NCBI GenBank assembly: GCA_021836865.1
Contig: JAKBHH010000001.1
Span: 1-64,000, forward strand
Length of the DNA stretch: 64,000 nt
Origin: Acidobacteriota bacterium
Lineage (GTDB): Bacteria; Acidobacteriota; Terriglobia; Terriglobales; Acidobacteriaceae
Reading direction: 5' to 3'
The notes beneath the pieces are model-generated. The model worked only from the letters and a program-made list of their open reading frames with translations, was not told the origin of the DNA and did not search any database. Of the stretch, positions 2,723 through 8,129 are shown piece by piece; position 1 is the stretch's first letter, and each line of letters begins with the position of its first letter. Position numbers and translations under genes: made by a program.

Positions 2723-4135
2723 CTATCTCACACCCACCTTATAGCGCGGCCAGAGCGGGCGGTCTGCCTCGTGGTTGATGACAGGCTCGCCATCGCACAC
2801 CACTTCGAGCACGGTGGCGGGCTGATCGGGCGCCGTCAAAGGCAGGCCGGTCACGCGCAGGCTGAACTCGTCTTGTATGAAATCCACTTTCTCGCCCGTC
2901 TTCAAGATGCGCACTGAAATCACATTGGGCTTGAGGCCGCCAATGGCGATGACCGCCTGCGTCTGATAGAAGCTCAGCCAGTCCGCCGCCGGCGTGTGGC
3001 CCGGCCAGAACTGCTGATGGATGTAAAGTGTGTTGCCGCGCCGGGTGTAGTTGGCATTGGTGTTCCAGCCAAAGTTGCCGCGGTCGGTGCCGTAGATCGC
3101 CTTGCCATTGGTGTCGAGCCACTGGCCTACCGATTGCAGCACGGCCACTGACTCCGGCGGCACGGAGCCGTCCGGCTCAGGCCCGATGTTCAGCAGGTAG
3201 TTGCCGCCGCCGCGGGCGCAGTTGGCCAGGTTGGCCACAATGGTCTTCGGCGTCTTCCACGCATCGTCGAAGCGATTGAAGCCCCAACTGTCGTTAAGCG
3301 TCATGCAGCTTTCCCATGCGCGGCCCGCCTCGGCGGCCTGGATGTGCTGCTCCGGCGTGGAGAAATCGCCTTCCAGGCCGTTGCGGTTGTTCACGATGAT
3401 GTCGGGCTGCAGGTCGAAGACCATCTGGTTCATGCGCTCGGATTCCCACTGCTCGGGCGTGAGCGGCCAGTCCACGTCGTACCAGAGGATGTCGATTTTG
3501 CCGTAATTGGTCATCAGCTCCCGGATCAGCCCGTGCGTGTACTCGACGAAGCGCCTGCGGGCCTCCTCGTCGGTCTTGCAGCGCGCGCCGTCCGGGTGGT
3601 GCCAGTCCATCAGAGAGTAGTAGAAGCCCACGCGCAGCCCCTCGGCCCGCGCGGCGTCAACGAACTCGCGCACCAGGTCGCGGCCCGGACCCTGCTGAGG
3701 AGCGCAGTAGTCGGTCAGCTTGGTGTCCCAGTGGCAAAAGCCTTCGTGGTGCTTGGTGGTCATCACCATGTATTTCTGCCCGGCGCGCCTGGCCAGGCGA
3801 GCCCAGTCGCGCGCAGCGTTCGGCTTGGGGGTGAAGTGCTTCGCCAGCAACTCATACTGCGGAATCGGGACGCCCTCAACCTCCAGCGCCCACTCATGCT
3901 GCCCGATGACTGAGTAGAGGCCCCAGTGGATGAACATGCCGAATTTGGCTTCGTGCCACCACGCCATCCGCTGGGCGCGGGTGGCGGCCATCTTCTGCGC
4001 GATGGTCGACGAACCTGCCGGCGCGTCGCCCGACTGCAGGCCCGCGGCGGATGCGCTGGATGTGGAAAGTGCCAGCGCGCCTGCGGCGCCGAGCCCCTTG
4101 AGAAATGACCGCCGCGAACCTTCGCTCCAGTGCAT
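2723..4135 (-). CDS. Secreted alpha-L-fucosidase (GH29)
   Basis: This 470-residue glycoside hydrolase probably removes terminal L-fucose from polysaccharides or glycans outside the cytoplasm. The N terminus carries a twin-arginine signal (RRSFLKGLGAAGALALS), implying export of a folded protein. The GH29 core is recognisable from FGMFIHWGLYSV, the TTKHHEGFCHWDT stretch and DILWYDVDW around residue 218, which contains the likely nucleophilic aspartate. The start at 4135 is preceded by GGAGGA at good spacing; a longer in-frame start at 4192 would bury the signal peptide. Convergent with folP. With the GH27 enzyme and sugar permease elsewhere in the window it points to a saprophytic, plant- or microbial-polymer-degrading lifestyle. 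Confidence 0.92.
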   Translation of the reverse strand: MHWSEGSRRSFLKGLGAAGALALSTSSASAAGLQSGDAPAGSSTIAQKMAATRAQRMAWWHEAKFGMFIHWGLYSVIGQHEWALEVEGVPIPQYELLAKHFTPKPNAARDWARLARRAGQKYMVMTTKHHEGFCHWDTKLTDYCAPQQGPGRDLVREFVDAARAEGLRVGFYYSLMDWHHPDGARCKTDEEARRRFVEYTHGLIRELMTNYGKIDILWYDVDWPLTPEQWESERMNQMVFDLQPDIIVNNRNGLEGDFSTPEQHIQAAEAGRAWESCMTLNDSWGFNRFDDAWKTPKTIVANLANCARGGGNYLLNIGPEPDGSVPPESVAVLQSVGQWLDTNGKAIYGTDRGNFGWNTNANYTRRGNTLYIHQQFWPGHTPAADWLSFYQTQAVIAIGGLKPNVISVRILKTGEKVDFIQDEFSLRVTGLPLTAPDQPATVLEVVCDGEPVINHEADRPLWPRYKVGVR

Positions 4136-4485
4136 GATGAGGTGTCCTCCGAACAGTTTTGCCGTGCGGGGGAAGTCTAGGGATTGAGGCAAGGCGGTGT
4201 CAAAAAGACAGTGATGATGACGGGTGCGGGCACTCCAAGCGACCGATTATAGCCGCACAAATCAGTGCCGCACAGTTGGCCCCGAAGCGAGCGTTTTTAA
4301 CGGAGTCGCCGGGGCAAGGTGAAATTAGGGTTAGGGTGTGCGGTAGAGCTCAAGAAATGACCGGGGGCGCCCGGTGTAAAGATTTTCATTTCGGATGAGT
4401 CGTTTCAATTTGAATTCCGGGCTGATTTTTAACACCGTGATTTCTTTGACTCACACATGCTCGACTAGTAGAGTGAGTGTCAGTT
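4136..4485. other. Intergenic boundary, about 350 bp
   Basis: This stretch separates the divergent fucosidase and methyltransferase genes. Composition becomes noticeably more AT-rich from about 4340, matching the downstream restriction-modification genes and marking the probable left edge of a transferred segment. I see no small gene. A short TTAGGG tandem near 4325 appears incidental. No integrase or target-site duplication could be identified. Confidence 0.5.
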
Positions 4486-5613
4486 ATGCCAACTGCGCTC
4501 GAATTTTTTGCTGGAAGCGGACTCGTCGGACAAGGGCTGGCACCAGAGTTTGAAACGCTCTGGGCGAATGACTTCTGCGCCAAAAAAGCGGAGGTCTTTC
4601 GAGCAAATCACCCTGCCGTGCGGTTTGATCGCGGTGGAATTGAGCAGGTGCGGGGAAGGGATTTGCCCGTAACCGATTTGGCTTGGGCTTCGTTCCCATG
4701 CCAGGACCTCTCGCTTGCTGGAAATCTGGGTGGGCTGAAGGTTGGAACCAGATCCGGACTGTTTTGGGAGTGGGTTCGAGTGTTAAGGGAGCTCAGTGAG
4801 CATGGTAAGCGGCCCCCGCTCCTCGTCGCTGAGAACGTTGTCGGATTTTTGGTCGCTGACGGAGGAAAGCATTTCCGCAAGGCCTACTCTGCGCTGCGGG
4901 CTCTTGGCTATAGAGTAGGCGCTTTGGTTATCGATGCCAAGATGTTCCTACCTCAAAGCCGACCCAGAGCTTTTGTCGTTGCCGTATCCGAGGAAGTCCC
5001 AATTGACGGCCTACACGGGGCGGTCCCGTCACCTCCATTTCATCCATACGGTCTGATTCGGGCCGGGCACACCATCAATGATCCGGAATGGGTGTGGTGG
5101 TCCCTCCCGCCGTTTTGCGGTGAAGTCGCTGCTTTCGCTGACATATGTGAACGTGATGCGCCATGTGATCCAATTTCAAAGACGCGGGAGCTCTGTGCAA
5201 TGCTTTCTCCGGTCAATAGGCGAAAGCTCGATGAAGCTAAGCGTGCCGGGACATTTTTCGCAGGTACAGGTTACCGACGCACCAGGCCCGACGAGAATGG
5301 CCGGGGTTCGCAACGGTTGGAGATTCGCTTTGACGGAATCGCGGGATGCCTCCGGGCACCGAATGGAGGGAGCAGTCGCCAGACAGTCATCTTGGTCGAA
5401 CGTGGAGCGGTAAGGTCACGGCTGCTAACGGTTCGAGAGTGCGCTCGGTTGATGGGGGCACCTGAGGACTATAGCATTCCCGGTTCCTATAATGATGGTT
5501 ATCGGGCGATGGGTGACGCAGTGGCAGTTCCTGTCACGAGGTGGCTCACACGACACCTGCTTGAGCCTCTTGCTGCGAGGGCTATGGCGATTCGCGCTCA
5601 ACACGCAGCATAG
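4486..5613 (+). CDS. DNA (cytosine-5-)-methyltransferase
   Basis: This 375-residue enzyme transfers a methyl group from S-adenosylmethionine to C5 of cytosine in a specific DNA sequence. The conserved motifs run in order: motif I FFAGSGLVGQG at the N terminus, the catalytic PCQ loop (FPCQDLSLAGN, near residue 71), ENV near residue 116, QSRPRAFVVAV (motif VIII), a variable target-recognition region, then LTVRECARLMG and the GDAVAVPV helix (motifs IX and X). The ATG at 4486 is preferred to an in-frame GTG at 4477. It is followed by a putative restriction enzyme and vsr, the classic layout of a mobile type II system. Lower GC than neighbouring genes supports horizontal transfer. The recognition sequence cannot be deduced. 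Confidence 0.93.
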   Translation: MPTALEFFAGSGLVGQGLAPEFETLWANDFCAKKAEVFRANHPAVRFDRGGIEQVRGRDLPVTDLAWASFPCQDLSLAGNLGGLKVGTRSGLFWEWVRVLRELSEHGKRPPLLVAENVVGFLVADGGKHFRKAYSALRALGYRVGALVIDAKMFLPQSRPRAFVVAVSEEVPIDGLHGAVPSPPFHPYGLIRAGHTINDPEWVWWSLPPFCGEVAAFADICERDAPCDPISKTRELCAMLSPVNRRKLDEAKRAGTFFAGTGYRRTRPDENGRGSQRLEIRFDGIAGCLRAPNGGSSRQTVILVERGAVRSRLLTVRECARLMGAPEDYSIPGSYNDGYRAMGDAVAVPVTRWLTRHLLEPLAARAMAIRAQHAA

Positions 5614-5659
5614 CATTTCAGAGCACGCTAAGAGTGAACCGTTGAGCGAAGGCCCCACG

Positions 5660-6250
5660 ATGCCAGATAGATCTAAGTTTGTTTTGCCGCCGACGAATCT
5701 CGATTTCGAGAAGTCGCTGATGTTCTTTCACGCCTACATGTATGGCCCCCTGCAAGGCAAATTGCGCCTTTATGGGGCGAGATCAATTCCTCCCGGCGCG
5801 GCAGTGATGTCTTCTGACTGGGAAGTATTTGCATCAATGTTGGTCAACGATCTGGGGCGCAAGCTTGGTGCTGGAATTGATCTGGCAAATAACGAGGTGA
5901 AATCAGCAAAACAGGGCGGAAGTTACGAATACCAGTACCACAAGAACACTGGTAAGGAGAAACTCGCGAAGGATATGACGGTTGGGCACCTCTTCTTTGA
6001 GTATTTTGATGGCCTAAGCGAGGTAAACCTCCGGTGGCTGCACGGCTCGATGTTAAGGGAGTTCTTTCAGAAGTGGTTGGACGATTACCCTGACCCATAC
6101 CCCCAGCGCTACCGGAAAGGTATCCCGTACTCATTTGTGCGGGCGAATGGCACTCTCTTGATGACACTTCGGGACGGGGAGGTTGTTTTTCCTGAGCTCA
6201 GCGCTCAGAGCGCCCCGACCGCAGGTCCAACGAAGCGCAAGTTCAAATAG
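5660..6250 (+). CDS. Putative type II restriction endonuclease
   Basis: I do not recognise the family of this 196-residue protein from sequence alone. It lies between a C5 methyltransferase and vsr, where the cognate restriction enzyme is usually found. It contains GIDLANNEVKSA around residues 72-83, matching a D-x(n)-E-x-K active-site pattern of the PD-(D/E)xK nuclease superfamily, followed by a basic and tyrosine-rich stretch. The ATG at 5660 is preceded by GAAGG. No signal peptide or membrane segment is visible. AT-rich codons match the two flanking genes, suggesting they moved together. The nuclease role is inferred from context plus this one motif; it might instead be an uncharacterised accessory protein. 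Confidence 0.6.
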   Translation: MPDRSKFVLPPTNLDFEKSLMFFHAYMYGPLQGKLRLYGARSIPPGAAVMSSDWEVFASMLVNDLGRKLGAGIDLANNEVKSAKQGGSYEYQYHKNTGKEKLAKDMTVGHLFFEYFDGLSEVNLRWLHGSMLREFFQKWLDDYPDPYPQRYRKGIPYSFVRANGTLLMTLRDGEVVFPELSAQSAPTAGPTKRKFK

Positions 6251-6266
6251 GCAGAGCTGATTTGTT

Positions 6267-6683
6267 GTGACTGACACTTTGAGCACTGAAGAGCGCAGCG
6301 CGTGCATGCGCTCAGTTCGAGGAAAGAACACGACGCCGGAGTTGGTTGTTCGGAGCCTGGTTCATTCCATGGGTTTTCGGTATGTGCTCCATTCCAAGAC
6401 TCTTCCAGGAAAACCCGACTTGGTTCTCGTCCGTCGTAGGAAGATAATCTTTGTGCATGGATGCTTCTGGCATAGACACCGATGCCGTCACGGCCAAGCA
6501 ATGCCGGTCGCAAACTCGGATTATTGGGAAGCGAAGCTTGAAAAGAACGCGCGGCGGGACAGGCAACAACTGAAGGACTTGCGCCAGGATGGATGGGAAG
6601 TGCTTGTCATTTGGGAGTGTTGGACAAGAAACTTAACTTCTTTACAGAAAAGGCTTGAGAGGTTCCTTAGGACGCGTGCGTAG
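6267..6683 (+). CDS. vsr: Very short patch repair endonuclease (Vsr)
   Basis: Vsr nicks DNA at T:G mismatches created when 5-methylcytosine deaminates, starting short-patch repair and protecting sites made by a partner C5 methyltransferase. The 138-residue product has the family hallmarks RSVRGKNTTPELVVRS at the N terminus, PGKPDLVLVRRRKIIFVHG with the catalytic aspartate, and the zinc/active-site segment HGCFWHRHRC, ending in the WEVLVIWECW signature. It begins with GTG only 16 bases after the preceding gene, so the three genes probably form an operon. Size and motifs look intact. Confidence 0.94.
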   Translation: MTDTLSTEERSACMRSVRGKNTTPELVVRSLVHSMGFRYVLHSKTLPGKPDLVLVRRRKIIFVHGCFWHRHRCRHGQAMPVANSDYWEAKLEKNARRDRQQLKDLRQDGWEVLVIWECWTRNLTSLQKRLERFLRTRA

Positions 6684-6806: not shown

Positions 6807-8129
6807 ATGGCCATGCGAGCGAAGACGGCAGTCGTGCTGGGTGCCCAGTGGGGCGACGAGGGCAAGGGCAAAATTGTGGACGTGCTGAGCGAACGCTTCA
6901 GCGCGGTGGCGCGCTACGCGGGCGGGCACAACGCCGGGCATACGGTCATCCACGGCGAGCAGAAGTTCGTGCTGCAGCTCATCCCCTGCGGCGTGCTGCG
7001 GCCCGGCTGCAAGGCCGTCATCGGCAATGGCGTGGTGCTGGACCCCGTCGCCTTTCTGCGTGAGGTGGCAAAGCTGCGCGACCTGGGCGTGGATGTGGAC
7101 GGCCAGCTCTCCGTCTCGAACCGCGCGCAGGTGATTCTGCCCTACCACCGTATGATCGAGCTGGCCGCCGAGAGCGCGCCGGGACGAAAGAAGATTGGCA
7201 CCACCAGCCGCGGCATCGGCCCAGCCTATGAGGACAAGATGGCGCGCAGCGGCCTGCGCATCGTGGACCTGCTGCGCCCGGAGCTCCTGAAGACGCACAT
7301 CGAGGCGGCCTGCGCGGAAAAGAACGCAATTGCCCATGCCCTGTTCGGGACCGACCCGCTGGATCCGCAAAAGATGTATGACGAATACGCCGCGGCGGCG
7401 GAACAGGTACGTCCGTTTGTCACCGATACGGGCCGCCTGCTGCACAAGGTGCTGGCCGCGGGCGGCAGCGTGATGTTTGAGGGCGCGCAGGGCACGATGC
7501 TCGACATCGACCACGGTACCTATCCCTTCGTGACTTCATCCAGCGCCACGGCGGGCGGGGCGGCCACGGGAACAGGCGTGGGTCCGACTGCGATCGGCAC
7601 GGTGATCAGCGTAACCAAGGCCTACGTGACGCGCGTGGGCGAAGGGCCATTCCCCACCGAGATTCACGAGGAAGTGGGCGACCATCTGCGGGCGCGCGGC
7701 AACGAGTACGGCGCCGTGACCGGCCGGCCGCGGCGCTGCGGATGGCTCGACATGCCGCTGCTCCGCTACTCGAACCAGGTAAACGGCGCCGAGTGGCTCG
7801 TGGTAACCAAGATGGATGTGCTCGATGAGCTGGCGGAGATTCCCATCTGCGTGGGCTACAGGATCAACGGCAAGGTGTCCGACGAGATTCCGGCGGACGT
7901 GGCGGGGCTCGAACGGATCGAGCCCGTGTATACGAAGCTGAAGGGCTGGCAGGCCTCCACTGAGGGCGTCACCGACTTTGACAACCTGCCCAAAGCGGCG
8001 CAGGAGTATCTCCGCTTCCAGGAGCGGGAGAGCGGGGCAAAGATCGGGATGGTGTCCACCGGGCCGGATCGCGACCAGACAATGGTGTTGCCGGAATTTG
8101 CGGCTGCGCTCGATGCGATTCACGGGTAG
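6807..8129 (+). CDS. purA: Adenylosuccinate synthetase
   Basis: PurA joins IMP and aspartate using GTP, the first committed step to AMP, in the cytosol. The 440-residue product begins MAMRAKTAVV and has the invariant GTP-binding loop GAQWGDEGKGK, then GHNAGHTV, the IMP-binding TTSRGIGPAYEDK segment, and GVGEGPFPTE-like and TGRPRRCGW motifs further on. The start at 6807 (or the ATG two codons later) gives the usual family length; the frame extends upstream through non-conserved sequence. It marks the return to GC-rich core chromosome after the restriction-modification segment. Confidence 0.97.
   Translation: MAMRAKTAVVLGAQWGDEGKGKIVDVLSERFSAVARYAGGHNAGHTVIHGEQKFVLQLIPCGVLRPGCKAVIGNGVVLDPVAFLREVAKLRDLGVDVDGQLSVSNRAQVILPYHRMIELAAESAPGRKKIGTTSRGIGPAYEDKMARSGLRIVDLLRPELLKTHIEAACAEKNAIAHALFGTDPLDPQKMYDEYAAAAEQVRPFVTDTGRLLHKVLAAGGSVMFEGAQGTMLDIDHGTYPFVTSSSATAGGAATGTGVGPTAIGTVISVTKAYVTRVGEGPFPTEIHEEVGDHLRARGNEYGAVTGRPRRCGWLDMPLLRYSNQVNGAEWLVVTKMDVLDELAEIPICVGYRINGKVSDEIPADVAGLERIEPVYTKLKGWQASTEGVTDFDNLPKAAQEYLRFQERESGAKIGMVSTGPDRDQTMVLPEFAAALDAIHG

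Follow-up and report, generated by a model that had tools for sequence, protein, structure and literature searches.

A horizontally acquired, probable Type II restriction-modification cassette of an Acidobacteriota bacterium encodes a predicted PvuII-like nuclease

The locus

Within the 64-kb stretch of Acidobacteriota DNA analysed here (the window), three genes lie on one strand between two host genes, with all frames intact and with spacings of 46 bp (M to R) and 16 bp (R to V). The features are as follows.

2726..4192, minus strand: left flank, alpha-L-fucosidase, a host gene (PF01120; DNA matches in same-genus genomes)
4486..5613, plus strand: M, C5 cytosine DNA methyltransferase, 375 aa, ATG start (profile matches)
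5660..6250, plus strand: R, predicted PvuII-fold PD-(D/E)xK restriction endonuclease, 196 aa, ATG start (alignment, AF2 fold, hhalign)
5873..5908, plus strand: GIDLANNEVKSA codons, predicted D...ExK active-site segment, R residues 72-83 (sequence, alignment)
6267..6683, plus strand: V, Vsr (very short patch repair) mismatch endonuclease, 138 aa, GTG start (profile matches)
6813..8129, plus strand: right flank, purA, a host gene (PF00709; DNA matches in same-genus genomes)

The three-gene layout, with methyltransferase and Vsr neighbours around a middle gene, had been proposed in a preliminary description of this DNA and is confirmed by the open reading frames and profile matches. The GC content of the island, 54.6% (57.1% for M, 51.8% for R and 52.3% for V), is the lowest in the window, which as a whole has 63.5%. 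Equally low values occur in 4 of 619 sliding 2.2-kb segments of the window, and segments within 0.5 point of the island GC have starts confined to 4101-4701, that is, over the island. The earlier claim of a low-GC island also stands, "low" being relative (about 55% against 63.5%).

The methyltransferase and the Vsr protein

M matched PF00145 (E=6.3e-42) and, above cut-off, TIGR00675, and has complete catalytic motifs, with FAGSG, SFPCQ (with the catalytic Cys70), ENV, QSRPR and GDAVAVPV all present. Its best PDB match was M.HhaI, and its best PADLOC match was DruM2/DruM PDLC00028 (E=4.6e-118).

V is a member of the Vsr family, with family models above cut-off and both the FxH and PD parts of the site present: it matched PF03852 (E=1.9e-28) and TIGR00632 (141.7 bits, the cut-off being 97.85), and the LPG-PD and HGCFWH segments are conserved in its alignment to E. 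coli Vsr 1cw0 (E=1.5e-26). The FXH element of the Vsr site is described in a passage of PMC1189080.

Relatives and invariant residues of R

R matched neither a Pfam, PADLOC or NCBIfam family at E<=1 nor a PDB sequence at E<=10, and a search of the PHROGs phage families gave nothing below E=0.2. No description of the R family was found in titles and abstracts of the open-access (PMC) literature, a search that barely covers print at large. Relatives were found at eight loci with 63-78% identity (seven in Acidobacteriota and one labelled Verrucomicrobia), and on two plasmids, of Brasilonema and Photobacterium, where proteins with 38-40% identity are annotated "hypothetical protein". R also occurs in four further genomes of one acidobacterial genus, together with one remnant there (5 of 395 other genomes), as a remnant in genome G474, on two IMG/VR contigs and in one 595-kb phage record, so that R occurrences number 20 with the window included.

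In an alignment of 12 rows the invariant columns include W54, E55, G72, D74, L75, E79, V80, K81 and S82, and further E90, Y91, Q92, Y93, H94, R150, R152 and K153. D74, E79 and K81, and with them the EVK triplet, are thus kept in all 12 of the aligned sequences. A canonical PD-(D/E)xK site, as outlined in part of PMC11347163, consists of an acidic residue on a helix, a D, and (D/E)xK, and E55, D74 and E79/K81 of R fit this pattern. Between loci L002 and L003, R is under purifying selection (dN 0.092, dS 1.046), with corresponding values of 0.074 and 1.22 for M and 0.171 and 1.096 for V; dS against the window sequences is saturated.

In L028 (4968-5501, IMGVR_UViG_3300035698_020015) a lone R relative, 35% identical, keeps EYQYH and has QRCRH in place of QRYRK; its gene adjoins a PD-(D/E)xK (Cas4-like) gene, with a Toprim gene nearby. 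The 595-kb phage LR756511.1 (L063, 5001-5567) encodes a distant R-like protein (hhalign probability 96.6%) that keeps a D and EIKS and is without the hairpin His and the QRYRK segment, and the neighbouring open reading frames resemble, by eye, intein-bearing ribonucleotide reductase genes.

Predicted fold and relationship to PvuII

Structure prediction had been named in the preliminary description as one check on R, and it returned a nuclease fold rather than an unrelated one. The AF2 model of the window R (from a 10-row alignment) has a mean pLDDT of 64.2, high at about residues 80-170 and low before residue 76. With Foldseek, its PDB matches at E<=0.001 were PvuII chains in 12 of 12 cases (best 4.1e-5), and VIA gave PvuII Z scores of 10.5-11.6 (rmsd 2.5-3.4 over 93-98 residues), with NaeI (Z 6.6) and NhoI (Z 5.5) as runners-up. 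The L028 phage protein, as the most distant relative allowed, provided a second test that is not fully independent of the first: its model (pLDDT 77.6) again matched PvuII in 12 of 12 cases at E<=0.001 (best 1.2e-5), with VIA Z scores of 10.3-11.6 over 132-149 residues, the next being NhoI at 7.2. PvuII (from pPvu1, NC_002632.1) is therefore the nearest solved fold to both R-family models, and a fold search of BFVD found one uncharacterised cyanophage protein (E=5.8e-4).

Comparison of families by profile pointed the same way. Using hhalign, the R family and a profile built from six PvuII-family proteins of plasmid records scored 40.6 over 104 columns (probability 81%; single-comparison E=1.2e-5), whereas a reversed alignment scored 12.0 and the maximum among 300 column-shuffled alignments was 22.5. 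BLASTP of the single R against a single PvuII protein was not significant (E=0.091), and against PF09225 the window R had no match and one of 12 relatives matched at E=0.032, under the cut-off. Together, the models support a PvuII-like nuclease fold for R. The suggestion that R is a PD-(D/E)xK nuclease, made from a single short stretch, is thereby supported and, with two models and a motif invariant in 12 of 12, sharpened to PvuII-like.

When the profiles are aligned, E79 and K81 of R fall on E68 and K70 of PvuII, and D74 falls on PvuII D61 and not on D58, the catalytic Asp, so that it is uncertain whether the first metal ligands of the two proteins correspond. The positions that presumably contact bases in PvuII, Asn140-Asn141 (invariant in the PvuII family), align with Tyr/Phe151-Arg152 in the R family, the window protein having Tyr151 by this sequence alignment. 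His84 of PvuII, reported in a section of PMC4705667 to bond a guanine of the recognition site, lies in the same segment as the invariant His94 of R. Both proteins thus present D...ExK followed by a segment with an invariant His, within small subunits (157 aa for PvuII and 196 for R), and an HTH gene precedes the endonuclease gene both in the PvuII system and in the Photobacterium relative of R. The systems differ in that a Vsr gene is present in the window cassette, and in their partners: protection in the PvuII system is by N4 methylation (PMC4705667, in the same section) through an N4 methyltransferase, whereas the partner of R is of the C5 type (PF00145). Because the PF09225 model missed it, Asn140-Asn141 are absent and its partner is C5, R was kept out of PF09225; from the models and sequence alignments, R would appear to work like PvuII, yet to stand outside that family.

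Two acidobacterial homologues of PvuII itself were also noted, in L067 (2201-2986) and L068 (2125-2904), each with an apparent N-terminal HTH fusion and a divergent methyltransferase. Fusions of controller and endonuclease (C-REase) described in part of PMC3850674 are comparable to these proteins. PF09504, the model for Bsp6I, matched none of the 12 R relatives at E<=5 in a Pfam-profile comparison, and its search against 247 genomes gave two partial matches under the cut-off; the one site inspected held no usable Bsp6I relative.

Bsp6I (GCNGC) has reportedly been published as a relative of PvuII. Its methyltransferase carries an m5C prediction from REBASE, and m4C was found at the GCNGC motif by sequencing (both from portions of PMC9465063). 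Given that prediction for the Bsp6I methyltransferase, there may already be a precedent for a C5-type partner of a PvuII relative.

Pairing of R with C5 methyltransferases

That R is cognate to a C5 methyltransferase had been proposed from the window alone and gains support from the other loci, as a related C5 methyltransferase adjoins R in 17 of the 20 occurrences, a count that includes L009 and G342 (R incomplete at a contig end) and G474 (M and R cut down). The three exceptions are the two phage records, with no PF00145 match in 38,343 bases (L028) and 595,163 bases (LR756511.1), and the remnant in G160. Gene order varies: M-R-V in the window and L002-L004, and in L005 with vsr split over two frames; V-M-R in L006, L008 and L020; R-M with V opposed in L007; HTH-R-M (HTH_3) with no V nearby in L015; and R convergent with M in L014.

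The V-M-R cassette of L020 (2387-5531), on a viral-classed IMG/VR contig, stands beside an open reading frame that by eye is transposase-like. Two cassettes are decayed: L085 (in G160) retains an R tail and a full-size Vsr of 160 aa and has lost M, and L086 (in G474) has truncated M and R genes beside a full-size Vsr frame of 144 aa.

The methyltransferase belongs to a shared METHYLTRANSFERASE family; searches with the window M and with its L015 counterpart matched 3,300 and 250 plasmid records, respectively. Among seven plasmid neighbourhoods hand-picked from those records, M has a DUF4928 gene as its neighbour in two, a GIY-YIG gene in two and, in two more that also carry Vsr, a PDLC03501 REase_II gene; the last has a 104-aa hypothetical gene next to M and a GIY-YIG gene close by. 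These plasmid methyltransferases share with the window M 38-48% identity and the TRD segment around AGCLRT..GGSS, and some of the systems carry Vsr like the window, but the nuclease-position genes are GIY-YIG, DUF4928 or PDLC03501 and not R. The pairing of this M family with other nuclease families, like the PvuII relationship, goes beyond the preliminary description. A recognition motif of CCGCGG, considered by analogy of the GIY-YIG partner with Eco29kI, was rejected: M.Eco29kI shares only 23% identity with the window M, whose TRD segment it lacks.

In a tree of M proteins, where support is good for 8 of 24 inner branches, the R-partnered members fall in several branches among the plasmid ones, so that R is paired with three or more branches of a single C5-methyltransferase family. 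Restriction endonucleases are usually expected to be less conserved than their methyltransferases, the opposite of the pattern here. Among the 78 pairs formed by 13 loci that carry both genes (pairs that are not independent), the similarity of R exceeds that of M by a margin of 15 points or more in 25, and in none is it the other way round. These figures hint at, but do not prove, exchange of methyltransferases or of nucleases; on a more speculative reading, the lower divergence of R would mean that methyltransferases are swapped around a fixed nuclease specificity.

Acquisition of the island

A profile search for R in 99 genomes (the window's own, 58 of the same genus, 14 of the same order and 26 of the same class) found it in the window's own genome and as a fragment in G474, of the same class; the cassette was found in 0 of the 58 other same-genus genomes. 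The contig is not foreign, because both flanks have DNA-similar counterparts in same-genus genomes. Comparison of the flanks by DNA in 29 other genomes found both on one contig in five. In G408 they adjoin without the island, with matches about 0.4 kb apart, and this is the empty site. The island, with the lowest GC of the window, its absence from same-genus genomes and the empty site in G408, is horizontally acquired.

The same fucosidase-purA insertion site (L042-L046) varies among same-genus genomes, from empty, to a different single gene between fucosidase and purA in G398, G345 and G402, to about 7 kb of other genes in G418.

Proposed function and alternatives

From these results, the M-R-V island is very probably a horizontally acquired Type II restriction-modification cassette with R as its PvuII-like endonuclease, and R most likely represents an unclassified PvuII-fold family of Type II restriction endonucleases, undescribed in the family databases searched. 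In such a cassette, M would methylate cytosine (C5) within a short motif of host DNA. R, probably a homodimer by analogy with PvuII, would bind the same motif when unmethylated on entering phage or plasmid DNA, in a presumed anti-phage role, and would make a double-strand cut by way of a predicted metal site at D74/E79/K81. H94 and R150-x-R152-K153 would stand where PvuII reads bases, as judged from the alignment. V would nick beside the T:G mismatches that arise from deaminated methylcytosines and so may limit the mutational cost of M.

A very different role would follow if R were, like BisI enzymes, a modification-dependent nuclease, directed against methylated DNA and functionally unrelated to M. 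Such enzymes have a PvuII-related fold, as R is predicted to have, but need methylated sites and have an (H/R)(V/I/T/M) methyl-binding motif; for NhoI and Eco15I, PvuII is given as the closest canonical relative in the consulted part of PMC11347163, and both R-family models have NhoI among the folds that follow PvuII (VIA Z 7.2 for L028 and 5.5 for the window protein). PvuII is, however, clearly the better fold match, the EVK of R (12 of 12) stands against QVK/QIK in BisI active sites (PMC11347163, same part), and a nuclease linked to a C5 methyltransferase as consistently as R is would attack its own host if the motifs overlapped. This role for R is considered very unlikely. It is also improbable that M and V form a solitary pair beside a decayed or inactive R. 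Decay is indeed seen in the relatives in G474 and G160, but in the window R nothing is truncated and all the invariant residues are kept, and between L002 and L003 R is under purifying selection. The strong match of M to PDLC00028 (DruM2, E=4.6e-118) might instead place the cassette within Druantia type II; the companion dru genes are not beside M, whose immediate surroundings are alpha-L-fucosidase and purA, and the M family is also found beside unrelated nucleases on plasmids, making this assignment scarcely credible.

With R taken as the endonuclease of a Type II cassette, a broader and rather doubtful proposal is that it founds an unclassified PvuII-fold family that behaves as a mobile nuclease module, with methyltransferases swapped around it and with the lone phage copies, whose base-reading residues are altered, being freed nucleases, perhaps for homing or for attack on host DNA.

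Significance

To our knowledge, few relatives of PvuII, a model restriction enzyme, have been recognised. A sequence-distant family with its predicted fold, a C5 partner and altered base-reading positions would offer a natural test of how specificity changes on one scaffold. Proteins now called "hypothetical" in acidobacterial, verrucomicrobial, cyanobacterial and Photobacterium records could be named, and the conservation of R above that of M makes methyltransferase exchange testable.
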